Source: Tabrizicola sp. (GTDB lineage: Bacteria; Pseudomonadota; Alphaproteobacteria; Rhodobacterales; Rhodobacteraceae). Taken from it: 64,000 nt of DNA. The DNA lies in NCBI RefSeq assembly GCF_030373185.1, contig NZ_JAUCZH010000001.1:124001-188000 (forward strand), read 5' to 3'. Below, piece by piece: positions 3,211-39,386 of this stretch (its first letter is position 1; each line of letters starts with the position of its first letter). The notes under the pieces are model-generated. The model was not told where the DNA came from. It did no database searches and saw nothing but the letters and a program-made list of their open reading frames with translations. The translations under genes were made by a program, and so were the position numbers.

Positions 3211-4458
3211 ATGAAGCGCTATTCGGTTTTCGCCATCGCCCGTGAGGCAGTCCGCTACCACATGGGCTGGGAACGCGCCTGGGCCTCGCCCGAGCCGAAG
3301 CCCGCCTATGACGTCATCATCGTCGGTGCGGGTGGGCATGGTCTGGCCACCGCCTATTACCTTGGCAAGAATTTCGGCATCACCAATGTCGCGATCATCG
3401 AAAAGGGCTGGCTTGGCGGTGGCAACACCGGTCGCAACACCACGATCATCCGGTCGAACTACCTGCAAGACCCCTCGGCCGCGATCTATGAAAAGTCGCG
3501 GTCCTTGTATGAAACCCTGTCGCAGGATCTGAACTACAACGTCATGTTCAGCCCCCGCGGTGTGATGATGCTGGCCCAGACCCATCATGAGGTGCGCGGC
3601 TACCTGCGCACCCAGCACGCCAACGCCCTGCAAGGGGTGGCGACCGAATTCATCACCCCCCAGCGGGTGAAGGAACTTTGCCCGATCCTGAACATCGACG
3701 GCCCCCGCTACCCCGTCCTTGGCGCGCTCTGGCAGGCCCGCGGCGGCACCGGGCGGCATGACGCCGTGGCCTGGGGCTACGCGCGCGCCTGTTCTGCGAT
3801 GGGCATGCACATCATCCAGAACTGCGAAGTCAAAGGTGTGCGGTCCGAAAATGGCGCGGTCACCGGCGTTGACACCACCAAGGGTTTCATCGGCACGAAG
3901 AAGCTGGGGATGGTCGTCGCCGGCCACTCCGGCCAGCTTGCCGAAATGGCCGGCTTCCGCCTCCCGATCGAGGCCGTCGCGCTTCAGGCGCTGGTGTCCG
4001 AACCGATCAAGCCCTGCATGGATGTGGTCGTCATGGCCAACACCGTCCACGGCTACATGTCGCAATCCGACAAGGGTGAAATGGTGATCGGCGGCGGCAC
4101 CGACGGCTTCAACAACTACACCCAGCGCGGGTCGTTCCACCACATCGAGGAAACCCTGCGCGCGCTGGTGGAAACCTTCCCGATCATCAGCCGCCTGAAA
4201 ATGCTGCGCCAATGGGGCGGCATCGTCGACATGACCGGCGACCGCTCGCCCCTGATCTCCAAGACCCCGCTTGGCAACTGCTTCATCAACTGCGGCTGGG
4301 GTACCGGCGGCTTCAAGGCGATCCCCGGCTCGGGCTGGGCGATGGCCGAACTGATGGCCAAGGGCGAACCCGGGCCACTGGCCGCCGAATTCAACATGTG
4401 GCGCTTCAAGGAAGGCCGGTTCATCGACGAATCGGTGGCGGCAGGGGTGGCGCATTGA
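3211..4458 (+). CDS. soxB: Sarcosine oxidase subunit beta
   Basis: A 415-residue flavoprotein subunit of heterotetrameric sarcosine oxidase, which oxidises sarcosine to glycine and passes the methyl carbon to tetrahydrofolate with release of H2O2. The FAD-binding motif is VIIVGAGGHGLATAYYL (about residues 36-51). The GRHDAVAW segment (181-188) contains a histidine at the place where characterised beta subunits carry covalent FMN. The C-terminal part holds the conserved GWGTGGFKAIPGSG. The open frame extends 39 codons upstream, but ATG 3211 has an AGAGG site and starts at the family's usual MKRYS. First gene of soxBDAG. Confidence 0.95.
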   Translation: MKRYSVFAIAREAVRYHMGWERAWASPEPKPAYDVIIVGAGGHGLATAYYLGKNFGITNVAIIEKGWLGGGNTGRNTTIIRSNYLQDPSAAIYEKSRSLYETLSQDLNYNVMFSPRGVMMLAQTHHEVRGYLRTQHANALQGVATEFITPQRVKELCPILNIDGPRYPVLGALWQARGGTGRHDAVAWGYARACSAMGMHIIQNCEVKGVRSENGAVTGVDTTKGFIGTKKLGMVVAGHSGQLAEMAGFRLPIEAVALQALVSEPIKPCMDVVVMANTVHGYMSQSDKGEMVIGGGTDGFNNYTQRGSFHHIEETLRALVETFPIISRLKMLRQWGGIVDMTGDRSPLISKTPLGNCFINCGWGTGGFKAIPGSGWAMAELMAKGEPGPLAAEFNMWRFKEGRFIDESVAAGVAH

Positions 4459-4510
4459 TGCCGTCTCCACATCCCGCCCAGTCGGCCACGCAACGCAACG
4501 GAGCAACCTC

Positions 4511-4846
4511 ATGCTGACCCTTGAATGCCCCTATTGCGGCGTGATGGCCGACGAGACCGAACTTTCCCCCGGCTATGAGGCGCATCTGAAGCGCTTCGGC
4601 CCCGGTGCCTCGCCCGAGGAATTCGAAGCCTACATGTTCGCCCGCAAGAACCCCAAGGGCGTGCATTTCGAACGCTGGCGCCACAGCTACGGCTGCGGCA
4701 AGTGGTTCCTTGCCGCCCGCTGCACCGCCACGCTGGAGGTGTTCGGAACCTACCCCGCGCAGGTCTCTGAACCCCCCGCCGACATCATCGCGAAAATTCA
4801 GGCGCGCCGACCCGATTGGCAGCCGGACTGGAAGGCCACGAAATGA
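4511..4846 (+). CDS. soxD: Sarcosine oxidase subunit delta
   Basis: A 111-residue delta subunit. It has the zinc-binding pattern of the family: CPYC near the N-terminus (residues 6-9), then HSYGCGKW with His and Cys near 58-65. The body is the usual short fold with FGTYPAQ near 77-84. It sits 52 bases after soxB and overlaps soxA by 4 bases (ATGA). Confidence 0.95.
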   Translation: MLTLECPYCGVMADETELSPGYEAHLKRFGPGASPEEFEAYMFARKNPKGVHFERWRHSYGCGKWFLAARCTATLEVFGTYPAQVSEPPADIIAKIQARRPDWQPDWKATK

Positions 4847-7800
4847 GCACGCGTCTTGCCAAGGGCGGCCGTCTGATCGACCGGACCGCCGCAGTCGAAA
4901 TTTCCTTCAACGGCAAGCGGATGAAGGGCTATCATGGCGACACGCTGGCTTCGGCCCTTCTGGCCAATGACCAGATGCTTGTCGGGCGCAGCTTCAAGTA
5001 TCACCGCCCGCGCGGCATTGTTGCCTCGGGGCCGGAAGAGCCGAACGCCTTGGTGAACCTTGGGTCAGGCGCGCGGCTGGAGCCGAACCAGCGCACCACC
5101 ATGACCGAGGTTTTCGACGGGTTGGAGGCCAGCAGCCAGAACCATTGGCCGTCGCTCGAATTCGATGTGGGCGTGGTGAACAACTACGTCTCGCGCTTCC
5201 TGCCGGCGGGGTTCTATTACAAGACCTTCATCCATCCGCGCCCGTTCTGGAAACATGTGTTCGAGCCGATCATCCGCCACTCGGCCGGGCTTGGCAAAGC
5301 CCCGACGACAGGTGACGCCGACCGCTACGAACAGGCCTATGCCTTTTGCGATGTGCTGGTTGTCGGCGCGGGTGTCGCGGGGCTTCTGGCTGCGCGTGCG
5401 GCGGCACAGGATGGCGCCCGCGTCATCCTGCTGGAACAGGCGCCGCAGCTTGGCGGCCGCAGCCCGGTGGACGAGACAACGGTGGAAGGCATATCCGTCG
5501 AAGACTGGCTCGCCAAGGCCGAAGCCGATCTTCGCGCGATGGACAATGTGACCATCCGCACCCGGACCACGGGGGCAGGGGTCTATGACCACGGCTATGT
5601 GCTGGCTGATGAGCGCGTTGCAGACCACACCCCCGGCGATGGCCGCCCCAAGCACCGGCTCTGGCGCATCCGGGCAGGCAAGATCATCACCGCGACCGGG
5701 GCGATCGAACGCCCGCTGTCCTTTGCCGGCAATGATCTTCCCGGCGTCATGCTGGCGGGGGCCGTGCGCGACTTTGTAGTGAACCATGCCGTGTCCCCGG
5801 GTGACCGGACCGTCGTCGTGACCAACAACGATTCCGCCTATCAGACCGCACTCGCGCTGAAAGCGGCGGGGCTGGAAGTGCCGGTGATCCTTGACGCCCG
5901 TGACACCGCCGATGGTGCCTTGCCCGAAGCCGCCCGCGCTGCGGGCATCCGTGTGCTGACCGGGCGCGCGATTGCAAAGGTAAAGGGCGGCAAGCGGGTG
6001 ACCGGCGTTGCGGTCTGCGCGCAGGCCGGCGAAGGCGCGGTGCTGGAGGAAGTCAGCTGTGACGCCGTCGCCATGTCGGGCGGCTGGTCGCCCGTCGTCC
6101 ACCTGTGGAGCCATTGTGGCGGCAAGCTTCTGTGGGATGAAACCATCTCGGCCTTCGTTCCCGATCCGGCCCGCCCACCGCTGAACCACGACGGCAGCGC
6201 CATGGTTTCGGTCGTGGGGGCGGCTGCTGGCCTGCTCGATCTTCCCGCCATTCTGGAGGCCGTTGCGTCAACCGGCATCTCTGCGCGCGTAGAGACGAAA
6301 GGAAGACGCAAGGAAGACGTGACAAAGACGGTGAAAACCAGCGTCGAAATCCCGCCGATCTGGGTCATGCCACAAGGCGCACCGATCACGCTGCGGTCAA
6401 AGATGTGGCTGGATTACCAGAACGACGTGAAGGTGTCTGACGTGCAGCTTGCCGCACGGGAAGGCTATCAATCGGTCGAACACACCAAGCGGTATACGAC
6501 GCTTGGCATGGCGACGGATCAGGGAAAGCTCAGCAACATCAACGGACTCGGCGTTCTTGCTGACGCCTTGGGTCAAGAGATTCCCCAAGTCGGCACCACC
6601 ACCTTCCGCCCGCCCTACACGCCTGTCACCCTTGGTGCGCTGGCCGGTGAATCGCGCGGTGAGATCTTCCAGCCGCTTCGGCGCACGCCGATGCATGAAA
6701 GCCATGAGCAATCAGGGGCTTACTTCGAACCCGTCGGCCTCTGGCGTCGCCCCTACTGCTTCCCCCGCGCGGGCGAAACCCACGAACAGGCGGTCCATCG
6801 TGAGGTTCTGAACACCCGGTCCAACCTTGGCCTGCTTGACGCCTCGACCCTTGGCAAGATCATCGTCAAAGGGCCGGATGCGGGCAAGTTCCTCGACATG
6901 ATGTATACCGGCGTGATGAGCACACTACCGGTAGGCAGGTGCCGCTACGGCCTGATGTGCAACGAACAGGGTTTTCTGTCCGATGACGGCGTGGTCGCGC
7001 GGATCGACGAAGACACCTGGTTGTGCCACACAACATCTGGTGGTGCTGACCGTATCCATGCCTGGATGGAGGATTGGCTTCAGTGCGAATGGTGGGATTG
7101 GCAGGTCTACACCGCCAATGTCACCGAACAATACGCACAAGTCGCCGTGGTTGGCCCGAACGCAAGGAAACTGCTGCAAGTCCTTGGTGGGATGGATGTT
7201 TCCAAAGAGGCGCTGCCCTTCATGCAATGGGCCGACGGCACCCTTGGCGGCTTTCCCGTCCGGGCCTACCGGATCAGCTTCTCGGGCGAGCTCAGCTACG
7301 AAATCGCCGTCCCCGCCAGCCACGGCGCGGCCTTCTGGGAAGCGTGCATGGAGGCCGGAAAGGCTTTGGGCGCAATGCCTTACGGGACGGAATGTCTTCA
7401 CATCATGCGTGCCGAGAAGGGCTTTATCATGATCGGGGACGAAACCGACGGCACGGTCATTCCGCAAGACCTTGGTCTTGATTGGGCGATTTCCAAGAAG
7501 AAGGCCGATTTCCTTGGCAAACGCGGTCAGGAACGCAGCTTCCTTGCCAGCCCGGAGCGCTGGAAACTGGTGGGATTTGAAACGCTTGACGGATCTGTCA
7601 TCCCAGATGGCAGCTATATCGTCGCCGAAGGTGTGAACGGCAACGGCCAGCGCAACACCCAAGGGCGGGTCACCTCGACCTACTATTCCCCTACCCTGAA
7701 GCGCGGCATTGCCATGGGCCTTTTGCACCACGGCCCGCAGCGCATGGGCGAGGTGGTGGAGTTCAACACGGTCAGCGGCGGCACGGTCAAAGCGCGGGTG

Positions 7801-37129: not shown

Positions 37130-38467
37130 TTAGCCCATCAGCCTTGGATCGAACGGATATGTCGTCAGGTTCTCGCAACCCGTTTCGGTGATCAGAACCT
37201 GATCTTCCAGCTTTATCGAGAAATTGCCCCCCTCGGGCGACACAAGCGCCTCGACGCAAAGGACCATCCCTGGTTCAAGTGCCGCGTCAAAAGCGCCCGG
37301 GGTCCAGCCGTCGGGGTAGGTGACATAGGGCCATTCATCGCAAAGCCCGACACCGTGCATCTTGCACGAATATTTCTGCTGCCAGTATTCCGGCGCAAGC
37401 TGGTGGCCACCCTTGACCAGTTCCTCGATCGTGACGCCGGGTTCAAGGCGGGACTGATGGTCGCGGATGTGGTCCAGCGCGTGATGAAAGGCCGAAACCA
37501 TCGCGTTTGAAGGGCGGCTGTCGCCAATCCACCACGTCCGGCTGATGTCGATGCAAAAGCCGTAAGCGCCGATCAGGTCGGTGTCGAAGGCAACGATCTC
37601 CCCGGGCTGGACGATGCGCGGCCCACATTCCTGAAACCACGGGTTCGTGCGCGGACCGGAGGCCAGCAGCCGCGTCTCGATCCATTCGCCGCCGCGCCGG
37701 ATGTTTGCGGCGTGGAGTTCGGCCCAGATCGCGTCCTCGCTGACGTGGCCCTTCGGCACGTTTTCGCGGGTGAATGCCTCCATCTCCGCGATCCCTGCCT
37801 CGCAGGCGTGGTGGGCGCAGCGCATGGCAAGGATTTCATCCGGCGTCTTGATCGCGCGGGTGCGTTCGGTGACTTCCTCGCCTTCCTCGACGGTAAAGCC
37901 TGCCGCCTCCAGCGCGCGCAGGCCGTGGACCATGATCTTGTCCACCGCCAGCCGCCGATTGGAGCCGGCATGTTCGCGCATCACCTCATCCACTTGCGCG
38001 GCAAAGCTGCGGGCGGCTTCGATGCCCCGGTCGCCGGTGGAGTTGTAAAAGAACGTGGCACCGGACCGCAGTTCCTTGACCAGGGGGTTGAAGGTCACAA
38101 GGAAGGGCGCGTTCTTGTATTCCCACATGACCATATGGCCATCGGCGCACAAGAGGCAGGCGCGGAACGGGTTGTGGGTGTTCCAAAGCTGCATGTTGGT
38201 GGTGTCGGTCGCGTAGCGGATGTTCAGCGGGTCGAACATCAGAAGGCCGCCATACTCACGCGCGACCAAGGCCTGCGTCAGTTTCTGCCAGCGATCATGC
38301 CGCATCTGTTGGAGGTTCGGCAAGGCAAGACCCGCCGCCTGCCATTCCTTGAAGGCCAGCTGGGTCGGGCCGATTTCCACCCGGTCATTGTCGTTCGGGG
38401 TGCCGTCGCCAAGGCGGTCTTCGCGGGTCGGGTCGATCTTGCGGCGGTCGCGGTGGTAGGTGGTCAT
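37130..38467 (-). CDS. dddP: DMSP lyase DddP (M24 peptidase fold)
   Basis: A 445-residue enzyme that cleaves dimethylsulfoniopropionate to dimethyl sulfide and acrylate. It belongs to the M24 fold but keeps DddP landmarks: LGDGTPNDNDRVEIGPTQLAF near the N-terminus and GGEWIETRLLASGPRTNPW. By my count D295, D297, D307, H371, E406 and E421 form the two-metal site, and D377 and Y366 are also present; as I recall, these are the numbers reported for Ruegeria DddP. ATG 38467 has GGAG seven bases upstream and gives the family length (about 446); 84 codons of open frame further upstream are excluded. Divergent from a DUF3445 gene. A general X-Pro peptidase is the alternative but fits worse. Confidence 0.9.
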   Translation of the reverse strand: MTTYHRDRRKIDPTREDRLGDGTPNDNDRVEIGPTQLAFKEWQAAGLALPNLQQMRHDRWQKLTQALVAREYGGLLMFDPLNIRYATDTTNMQLWNTHNPFRACLLCADGHMVMWEYKNAPFLVTFNPLVKELRSGATFFYNSTGDRGIEAARSFAAQVDEVMREHAGSNRRLAVDKIMVHGLRALEAAGFTVEEGEEVTERTRAIKTPDEILAMRCAHHACEAGIAEMEAFTRENVPKGHVSEDAIWAELHAANIRRGGEWIETRLLASGPRTNPWFQECGPRIVQPGEIVAFDTDLIGAYGFCIDISRTWWIGDSRPSNAMVSAFHHALDHIRDHQSRLEPGVTIEELVKGGHQLAPEYWQQKYSCKMHGVGLCDEWPYVTYPDGWTPGAFDAALEPGMVLCVEALVSPEGGNFSIKLEDQVLITETGCENLTTYPFDPRLMG

Positions 38468-38600
38468 CAGACGCTCCGGCTTTTGTGCCAGCTTGACGGG
38501 GCGGTGGGGCAAGGCTTCGCCATGGGCGACGGTGATTGTCGCAAACGGGCCGGGTTGCAGCCTTGCGGCGGGCATGGTGAAAGGGGCCATGGTGACCCCG

Positions 38601-39386
38601 ATGCAAGACGCGCCGATCCTGCAAGACCGGCTTCCCTTTCTGCCATGGATGGACCCGCGCACCCGGCGGCTGCCGGGGATATTGCCGGTCGAGGGGCGCG
38701 ACTGGCTGCGCACTGACACGGCCTATGCCCCGCAGATGGCCCTGCGCGACCGGTTGATCGCGGGGCAGGCGGATGTGGTGCATGCACTACTGCCAGAAGC
38801 AAGCCCCGCAGCGGACGAGCTTTACGCCGCCACCCTTGACTGGTTGCGTCAGGCACCGGGCTTTGCCATCGCCACGCAATCTGCGCGCCGGCCCGACGGG
38901 GTGGAGGTGCCGCTTGACCCGGCCCGACCCCTGCTGACGCTGGGGCGGCTGGTGCAAGAGGATCTGTGCCTCATGCAATCGGATGGCGGGGAATACCGGC
39001 TGACCGGGGCAATCCTGTGCTTTCCCGCCAGCTGGAGCCTTGCACAAAAGCTTGGCCGCCCGATGACCGGAATTCACGACCCGGTCGATGTCTATGATGC
39101 CGACATGGGCCGACGGGTGAACCGCCTCTTTGATGCAATCCGCCCCGAACAACCGCTTTGGCGGATGAACTACCTGACCTATGACGATTTTGTGCTGCAC
39201 CAACCCCGGATTGAGGGCGAGAAGCGGCTGCAGCCGACAGACCATGTCTATATCCGGTGCGAGCGTCAGTGCCTGCTGCGGCTGCCTGCCACAAGGGCCG
39301 TGGTCTTCACCATTCATACCTATGTGGTGGATGCCGGAACCGTGACGGCGGCTGAACTTGCCGCGCTGCGCGACGCGGTGCATTGA
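38601..39386 (+). CDS. DUF3445 / HODM alpha-subunit-like haem oxidative N-demethylase family protein
   Basis: A 261-residue protein of the DUF3445 (HODM_asu-like) family, whose characterised member is a haem-dependent oxidative N-demethylase acting on dimethylamine. Typical blocks are LPFLPWMDPRTRRLPGI near the start, LVQEDLCLMQ (about 116-125) and ERQCLLRLPATRAVVFTIHTY (about 227-247). The start is uncertain: ATG 38589 or GTG 38592 sit nearer an AAAGGGG site. It is divergent from dddP and overlaps or abuts the esterase gene, depending on that gene's start. The substrate here is unknown. Confidence 0.8.
   Translation: MQDAPILQDRLPFLPWMDPRTRRLPGILPVEGRDWLRTDTAYAPQMALRDRLIAGQADVVHALLPEASPAADELYAATLDWLRQAPGFAIATQSARRPDGVEVPLDPARPLLTLGRLVQEDLCLMQSDGGEYRLTGAILCFPASWSLAQKLGRPMTGIHDPVDVYDADMGRRVNRLFDAIRPEQPLWRMNYLTYDDFVLHQPRIEGEKRLQPTDHVYIRCERQCLLRLPATRAVVFTIHTYVVDAGTVTAAELAALRDAVH

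Follow-up and report, generated by a model that had tools for sequence, protein, structure and literature searches.

We conclude that the 64,000-nucleotide stretch of Tabrizicola sp. DNA analysed here (the window) very probably carries an intact, vertically inherited dddP gene that encodes a DMSP-cleaving lyase. By sequence comparison the protein is an orthologue of DddP, and this identity rests on similarity over the whole length, on the family model and on residue 278. DddP is known to cleave DMSP, which algae produce, to dimethyl sulfide and acrylate. An earlier note on this DNA had proposed the same enzyme; that identification was right, and the enzyme is a known one that is ordinary for the lineage. 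If the gene is expressed and the protein acts as its studied relatives do, Tabrizicola-type bacteria would be added to the expected sources of dimethyl sulfide, which is a climate-active gas.

The gene begins with an ATG at 38467, and its coordinates in Table 1 include the stop codon. The open frame extends upstream of this ATG to 38719, and the start at 38467 is supported because the gapless alignment to the solved DddP structure 4rzy begins at residue 2 of both proteins. The plus-strand frame over the same interval is interrupted by an internal stop; the earlier note had named no strand. GC at codon positions 1, 2 and 3 is 64, 45 and 80%, and dN/dS against ten Paracoccaceae-type relatives is 0.08-0.16 (Nei-Gojobori), at dS values of 0.76-1.02 that are partly saturated. 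Both measures are as expected of a genuine gene that is kept under purifying selection. The gene is present in a single copy in the genome, where the only other match is an M24 protein at 25%.

Table 1. Features of the dddP region, in window coordinates
Feature	Coordinates	Strand	Basis
dddP, DMSP lyase DddP	37130..38467	minus	445 aa; family score, PDB alignment, residues, tree
HODM, haem-dependent oxidative N-demethylase alpha-like (PF11927)	38502..39386	plus	PF11927 172 bits; conserved neighbourhood
Candidate regulatory inverted repeat TTGCGAC-N7-GTCGC	38526..38544	minus	about 77 bases before dddP; conserved in relatives

Assignment to the DddP family

The NCBIfam equivalog model for DddP (NF043017) gives the protein 849 bits against a cut-off of 600 and is matched over positions 2-443 of 443, and the next NCBIfam model reaches 47 bits. 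The best model outside DddP, a peptidase model, stands at 46.7 bits where its cut-off is 393, and the Pfam match is to Peptidase_M24 alone. Among solved structures we compared the protein with 4rzy, 4rzz, 4s00 and 4s01, which we take to be DddP of Ruegeria lacuscaerulensis. The alignment with 4rzy (716 bits) has no gap over residues 2-445 and includes the whole of the N-terminal part; the chance expectation of the PDB chain match to DddP is E = 2.3e-214. Across four solved DddP sequences, 4b28 among them, the scores run from 663 to 716 bits, and the top M24 chain outside DddP reaches 47. The value of 663 bits belongs to DddP of Roseobacter denitrificans (4b28, over residues 5-445), which is more distant from the window protein than 4rzy, at about 70% identity or lower. 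The protein of R. lacuscaerulensis strain HKCCC1264 (L064) is 70% identical to it.

We built a quick tree from 43 sequences: 30 dddP loci out of the 80 fetched, three plasmid copies, four DddP-like proteins, the genome's five other M24 proteins and the window protein. It places the window protein in a 33-row DddP clade with an SH-aLRT of 100, nearest to the Tabrizicola sequences and together with L064. The five other M24 proteins lie outside this clade, split off at SH-aLRT 98, and an Oceanisphaera plasmid protein annotated as DddP (L123, 55% identity) falls just outside it. The outgroup branches are very long, and therefore only the gross split is trusted. An M24 hydrolase from outside the DddP family, of prolidase, creatinase or ectoine-hydrolase type, would share the M24 Pfam domain and the weak matches to prolidases and creatinase that we see, but with 849 bits against 47, the position in the tree and the peptidase histidine positions held by F278 and D377 we regard this as extremely improbable; a prolidase or creatinase identity was rejected on the NCBIfam scores and the tree. 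Family score, 4rzy alignment and clade position all agree with the DddP identity that the earlier note gave to this 445-residue M24-fold protein. The check that it had suggested, an alignment with Ruegeria DddP together with an M24 tree, put the protein in the DddP clade with no grouping among prolidases or creatinases.

Catalytic residues and their diagnostic value

D295, D297, D307, Y366, H371, D377, E406 and E421 are all found in the window protein, at the numbers given in the earlier note. The shared numbering is borne out by the gapless alignment with 4rzy, in which the eight residues have the same numbers, and by the accessible part of PMC4108388, which lists the six metal ligands together with Tyr366 and Asp377 under the same numbers for R. 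denitrificans DddP. The ligands in the window protein are D295, D297, D307, H371, E406 and E421, with Tyr366 and Asp377 above the metal site. Among the solved structures, changes relative to 4rzy are seen in 4s00 and 4s01, with A for Y at 366 and N for D at 377. The eight residues are invariant in all 80 fetched loci, which are the best 80 of at least 594 relatives.

The catalytic set is thus complete, as had been claimed, but it does not by itself single out DddP. Four DddP-like proteins, three from the same genus (L112, L113 and L115) and one from an Antarctic Pseudomonas plasmid (L124), keep all eight residues just as the window protein does, and we therefore read these residues as the mark of a DddP-type metal site and not as proof of membership. 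The four differ from the window DddP in their identity to it of 37-44% and in having M or Y at position 278. The three genus copies, which are the ones scored, reach 360-374 bits and so fall below the DddP cut-off of 600, and L112, L113 and L124 lie outside the DddP clade in the tree. They possibly represent another lyase or a sister function. A residue count over five rows, with L114 (26% identical) as the fifth DddP-like protein, has one row that departs at 297, 307, 366 and 377. The L124 gene (positions 3938-5185) is annotated as an Xaa-Pro peptidase and adjoins a BCCT transporter gene.

Judged from these alignments, F278 is more telling of DddP than the eight-residue set. In the alignment of structure chains, F278 and D377 sit opposite prolidase histidines, so that two peptidase His are replaced by Phe and Asp; the exchange is described as a mark of DddP in the portion of PMC5395565 available. 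F278 is invariant in the DddP sequences compared.

Predicted reaction and substrate

By analogy with its studied relatives, the enzyme would have the M24 (pita-bread) fold and may form a homodimer as they do. The putative two-metal centre made by the six ligands would bind the carboxylate of DMSP, D377 would remove the C-alpha proton and Y366 would help to hold the sulfonium, and a beta-elimination would yield dimethyl sulfide and acrylate. According to excerpts of PMC5395565 and PMC4108388, the carboxylate is held in studied DddP by two metal ions (mainly iron), the alpha proton is abstracted by D377, and the sulfur is kept in place by a conserved Trp and Tyr. The acrylate would be converted to acrylyl-CoA and then cleared by the two AcuI-type reductases of the genome. 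Release of dimethyl sulfide from DMSP by the window protein is predicted on this analogy.

The natural substrate may be broader than DMSP. DddP enzymes also split DMSOP into DMSO and acrylate (PMC10686828, in the part available), and because studied members do so the window DddP probably cleaves DMSOP too. The affinity of studied DddP is weak (14 and 17 mM in the accessible text of PMC5395565), and therefore DMSP may not be the main natural substrate where it is scarce. It is conceivable, although we think it quite unlikely, that this is a freshwater enzyme of the same fold and metal site that mainly serves DMSOP or another sulfonium or methylated compound, with DMSP cleavage as a secondary activity. 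Besides the activity on DMSOP, two observations would agree with such a role. One is a Paracoccus yeei plasmid dddP (L121:6001-7350) whose neighbours are genes of the hydantoinase/oxoprolinase and mandelate racemase types, which is not the usual setting of a DMSP lyase. The other comes from comparing window-type sequences (L003-L043 and the window, 42 rows) with Roseobacter-type sequences (L048-L082, 35 rows; L044-L047 excluded), two types that are defined by identity to the window protein and not by recorded habitat. Three positions separate them at 90% or more on each side: E116 in 41/42 window-type rows against D in 32/35 Roseobacter-type rows, R202 in 41/42 against K in 33/35, and S367, which adjoins Y366, in 42/42 against G in 33/35 and in 4rzy. 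These differences are mild, however, and the eight catalytic residues do not change across the best 80 loci. The excerpt of PMC10686828 also has DddP more efficient on DMSP than on DMSOP, and we keep DMSP cleavage as the preferred reading.

Inheritance and the freshwater setting

The gene had also been called ecologically notable in a genome with freshwater-type features, and this is the weak part of the earlier note. The DddP cut-off is exceeded in 29 of the 32 genomes of the genus, the gene's neighbourhood is shared with marine relatives, DMSP in freshwater is documented (PMC10674015, in the part available), and DMSP-related genes of freshwater Tabrizicola have been described (PMC12381374, in the part available). 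The genus genomes without a DddP above the cut-off are G007 (100% complete), G012 (81%) and G019 (70%). Across the family, the cut-off is exceeded in 162 genomes of a sample of 295, in which almost every genome represents a different genus. The closest relatives, drawn from a scan of genome contigs and taken among the best 80 of at least 594, are Tabrizicola, Rhodobacter and related records, some of them with a pond, a lake or a warm spring in their names.

The gene order glnB-glnA-HODM-dddP-purB-fliG is shared by loci from Tabrizicola to Ruegeria (e.g. L059, L063 and L075), though not by all 80, and in R. lacuscaerulensis L064 glnB, glnA, HODM and purB lie near dddP as they do in the window. 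This conservation is as vertical inheritance would give, and from it, together with the near-universality in the genus, we infer the vertical inheritance of a maintained gene. That a marine dddP was acquired recently through horizontal transfer seems very improbable to us: dddP does occur on plasmids (four records, 60-80% identity) and one Rhizobium record (L044) falls inside the window's branch, but this has to be set against the presence in 29/32 genus genomes, the gene order common to marine relatives, a GC of 63% for dddP compared with 64% for the window, and the separation of the window's 21-row branch from an 11-row branch that includes Ruegeria (98 each). The gene looks like a long-held, common gene of the group rather than a surprising marine import, and it points to dddP as an ancestral and not an exotic member of the family's gene set.

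As to the freshwater setting, the available text of PMC10674015 reports DMSP in ice-covered Lake Baikal at marine-like levels, and that of PMC12381374 mentions that freshwater Tabrizicola and Allotabrizicola in culture have the potential to oxidise DMSP; the term 'dddp' is absent from the latter, in the portion available. Among the matches listed in our literature search there was no paper on dddP in Tabrizicola.

The divergent neighbour and the upstream repeat

Two modest leads come from the region ahead of dddP. The first is the divergent HODM gene, whose start is uncertain (ATG candidates at 38574, 38589 and 38601) and whose protein scores 30 bits against the solved N-demethylase 5lte. It is present in 55 of the 80 fetched dddP loci (the best 80 of at least 594), some of which end at contig ends. 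Among the matches listed for 101 sampled genomes, HODM is divergent within 600 bases of dddP in 86 and within 2.7 kb in 9 more, and it lies elsewhere or on another contig in 6. With presence taken as E <= 1e-100 for dddP and E <= 1e-30 for HODM, 139 genomes have both, 27 dddP alone, 76 HODM alone and 53 neither (Fisher p = 3e-6, uncorrected for kinship); HODM is thus found in 76 of the 129 sampled genomes without dddP. On three plasmids it is not annotated among the genes that flank dddP, within flanks of up to 6 kb and in one case less than 1.1 kb to the record end. It is also absent from G007, G012 and G019, two of which are incomplete genomes, and this fits a joint loss with dddP. Much of the association may reflect inherited position, not function.

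The second lead is the inverted repeat. A repeat scoring at least 11 of 14 is found at -95 to -70 in 35 of 78 loci (spacing of 5-10 allowed), and 20 dinucleotide shuffles average 0.65 loci and never exceed 2 of 78. Ten of the 78 loci were used to spot the repeat and all ten score 12; the remainder gives 25 of 68. In its strict form the repeat stands upstream of dddP in 27 of the 80 loci and occurs at 19 further sites in 935 kb. Many marine dddP genes have the repeat too, and in numerous loci of the Ruegeria/Roseovarius type its spacing is 8-10 where it is otherwise 7, which is odd for a rigid dimer site, and overlapping divergent -35 boxes are a possible explanation for the repeat. The latter explanation is weakened because 8 of the 23 loci without a HODM match in the available stretch (0.4 to 6 kb) still carry the repeat at -95 to -70. 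In the genome there are five exact sites including that of dddP; of the others, two fall within reading frames, a third is flanked on both sides by the 3' end of a frame, and the fourth overlaps the end of one frame about 110 bases ahead of the next. Sites with one mismatch number 49, compared with 31 for a reversed control, and no site from the genome scan adjoins the acuI-type genes. Its conservation suggests that the repeat may regulate dddP. The literature matches listed on regulation contained no paper naming dddP, and the conserved repeat would offer a concrete starting point for such work.

Taken together these leads allow a broader proposal, which we put forward tentatively and consider rather doubtful. 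In this proposal dddP would be no marine specialisation but an ancestral, near-core gene of both freshwater and marine branches of the family, specifically regulated through the repeat about 77 bases upstream and usually divergent from HODM, which may act on a related methylated compound. If so, freshwater turnover of DMSP or DMSOP would be a standing trait of Tabrizicola-type bacteria, and S367 beside the catalytic Tyr366 could be a lineage-specific tuning.

Other DMSP-related genes of the genome

Two AcuI-type acrylyl-CoA reductase genes exceed the TIGR02823 cut-off, and both proteins, at 427 and 413 bits, fall slightly short of the 440 that the stricter equivalog model for AcuI demands. These genes are on contig C2 and dddP is on C1, and a dddP-acuI operon was therefore rejected; in the Roseobacters surveyed in PMC3338564, as far as its available part goes, acuI was never beside dddP. 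One of the two proteins scores 549 bits to solved AcuI, and its gene belongs to a cluster on C2 (L107:6507-13727, minus strand; G000:C2) that also encodes an OpuAC-type ABC importer protein, an acyl-CoA synthetase and a DmdA-like protein of 350 bits, where the DmdA cut-off is 410. A second DmdA-like protein lies at L110:6727-7827. The two best of the 16 GcvT matches in the genome were scanned against the DmdA model and gave 350 and 367 bits, both below the cut-off, and a true DmdA was rejected. The genome search gave no match for a BCCT transporter. A candidate for a second lyase is encoded at L109:7799-8374 on the minus strand (G000:C3), a cupin in which the DMSP_lyase domain (PF16867) is matched at 144 bits. 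Against solved DMSP lyases it reaches 30 bits at best, it has no NCBIfam match, and it is distant from the characterised DddL, DddQ and DddW. The cupin gene adjoins a frame that we take to be gyrB-like.
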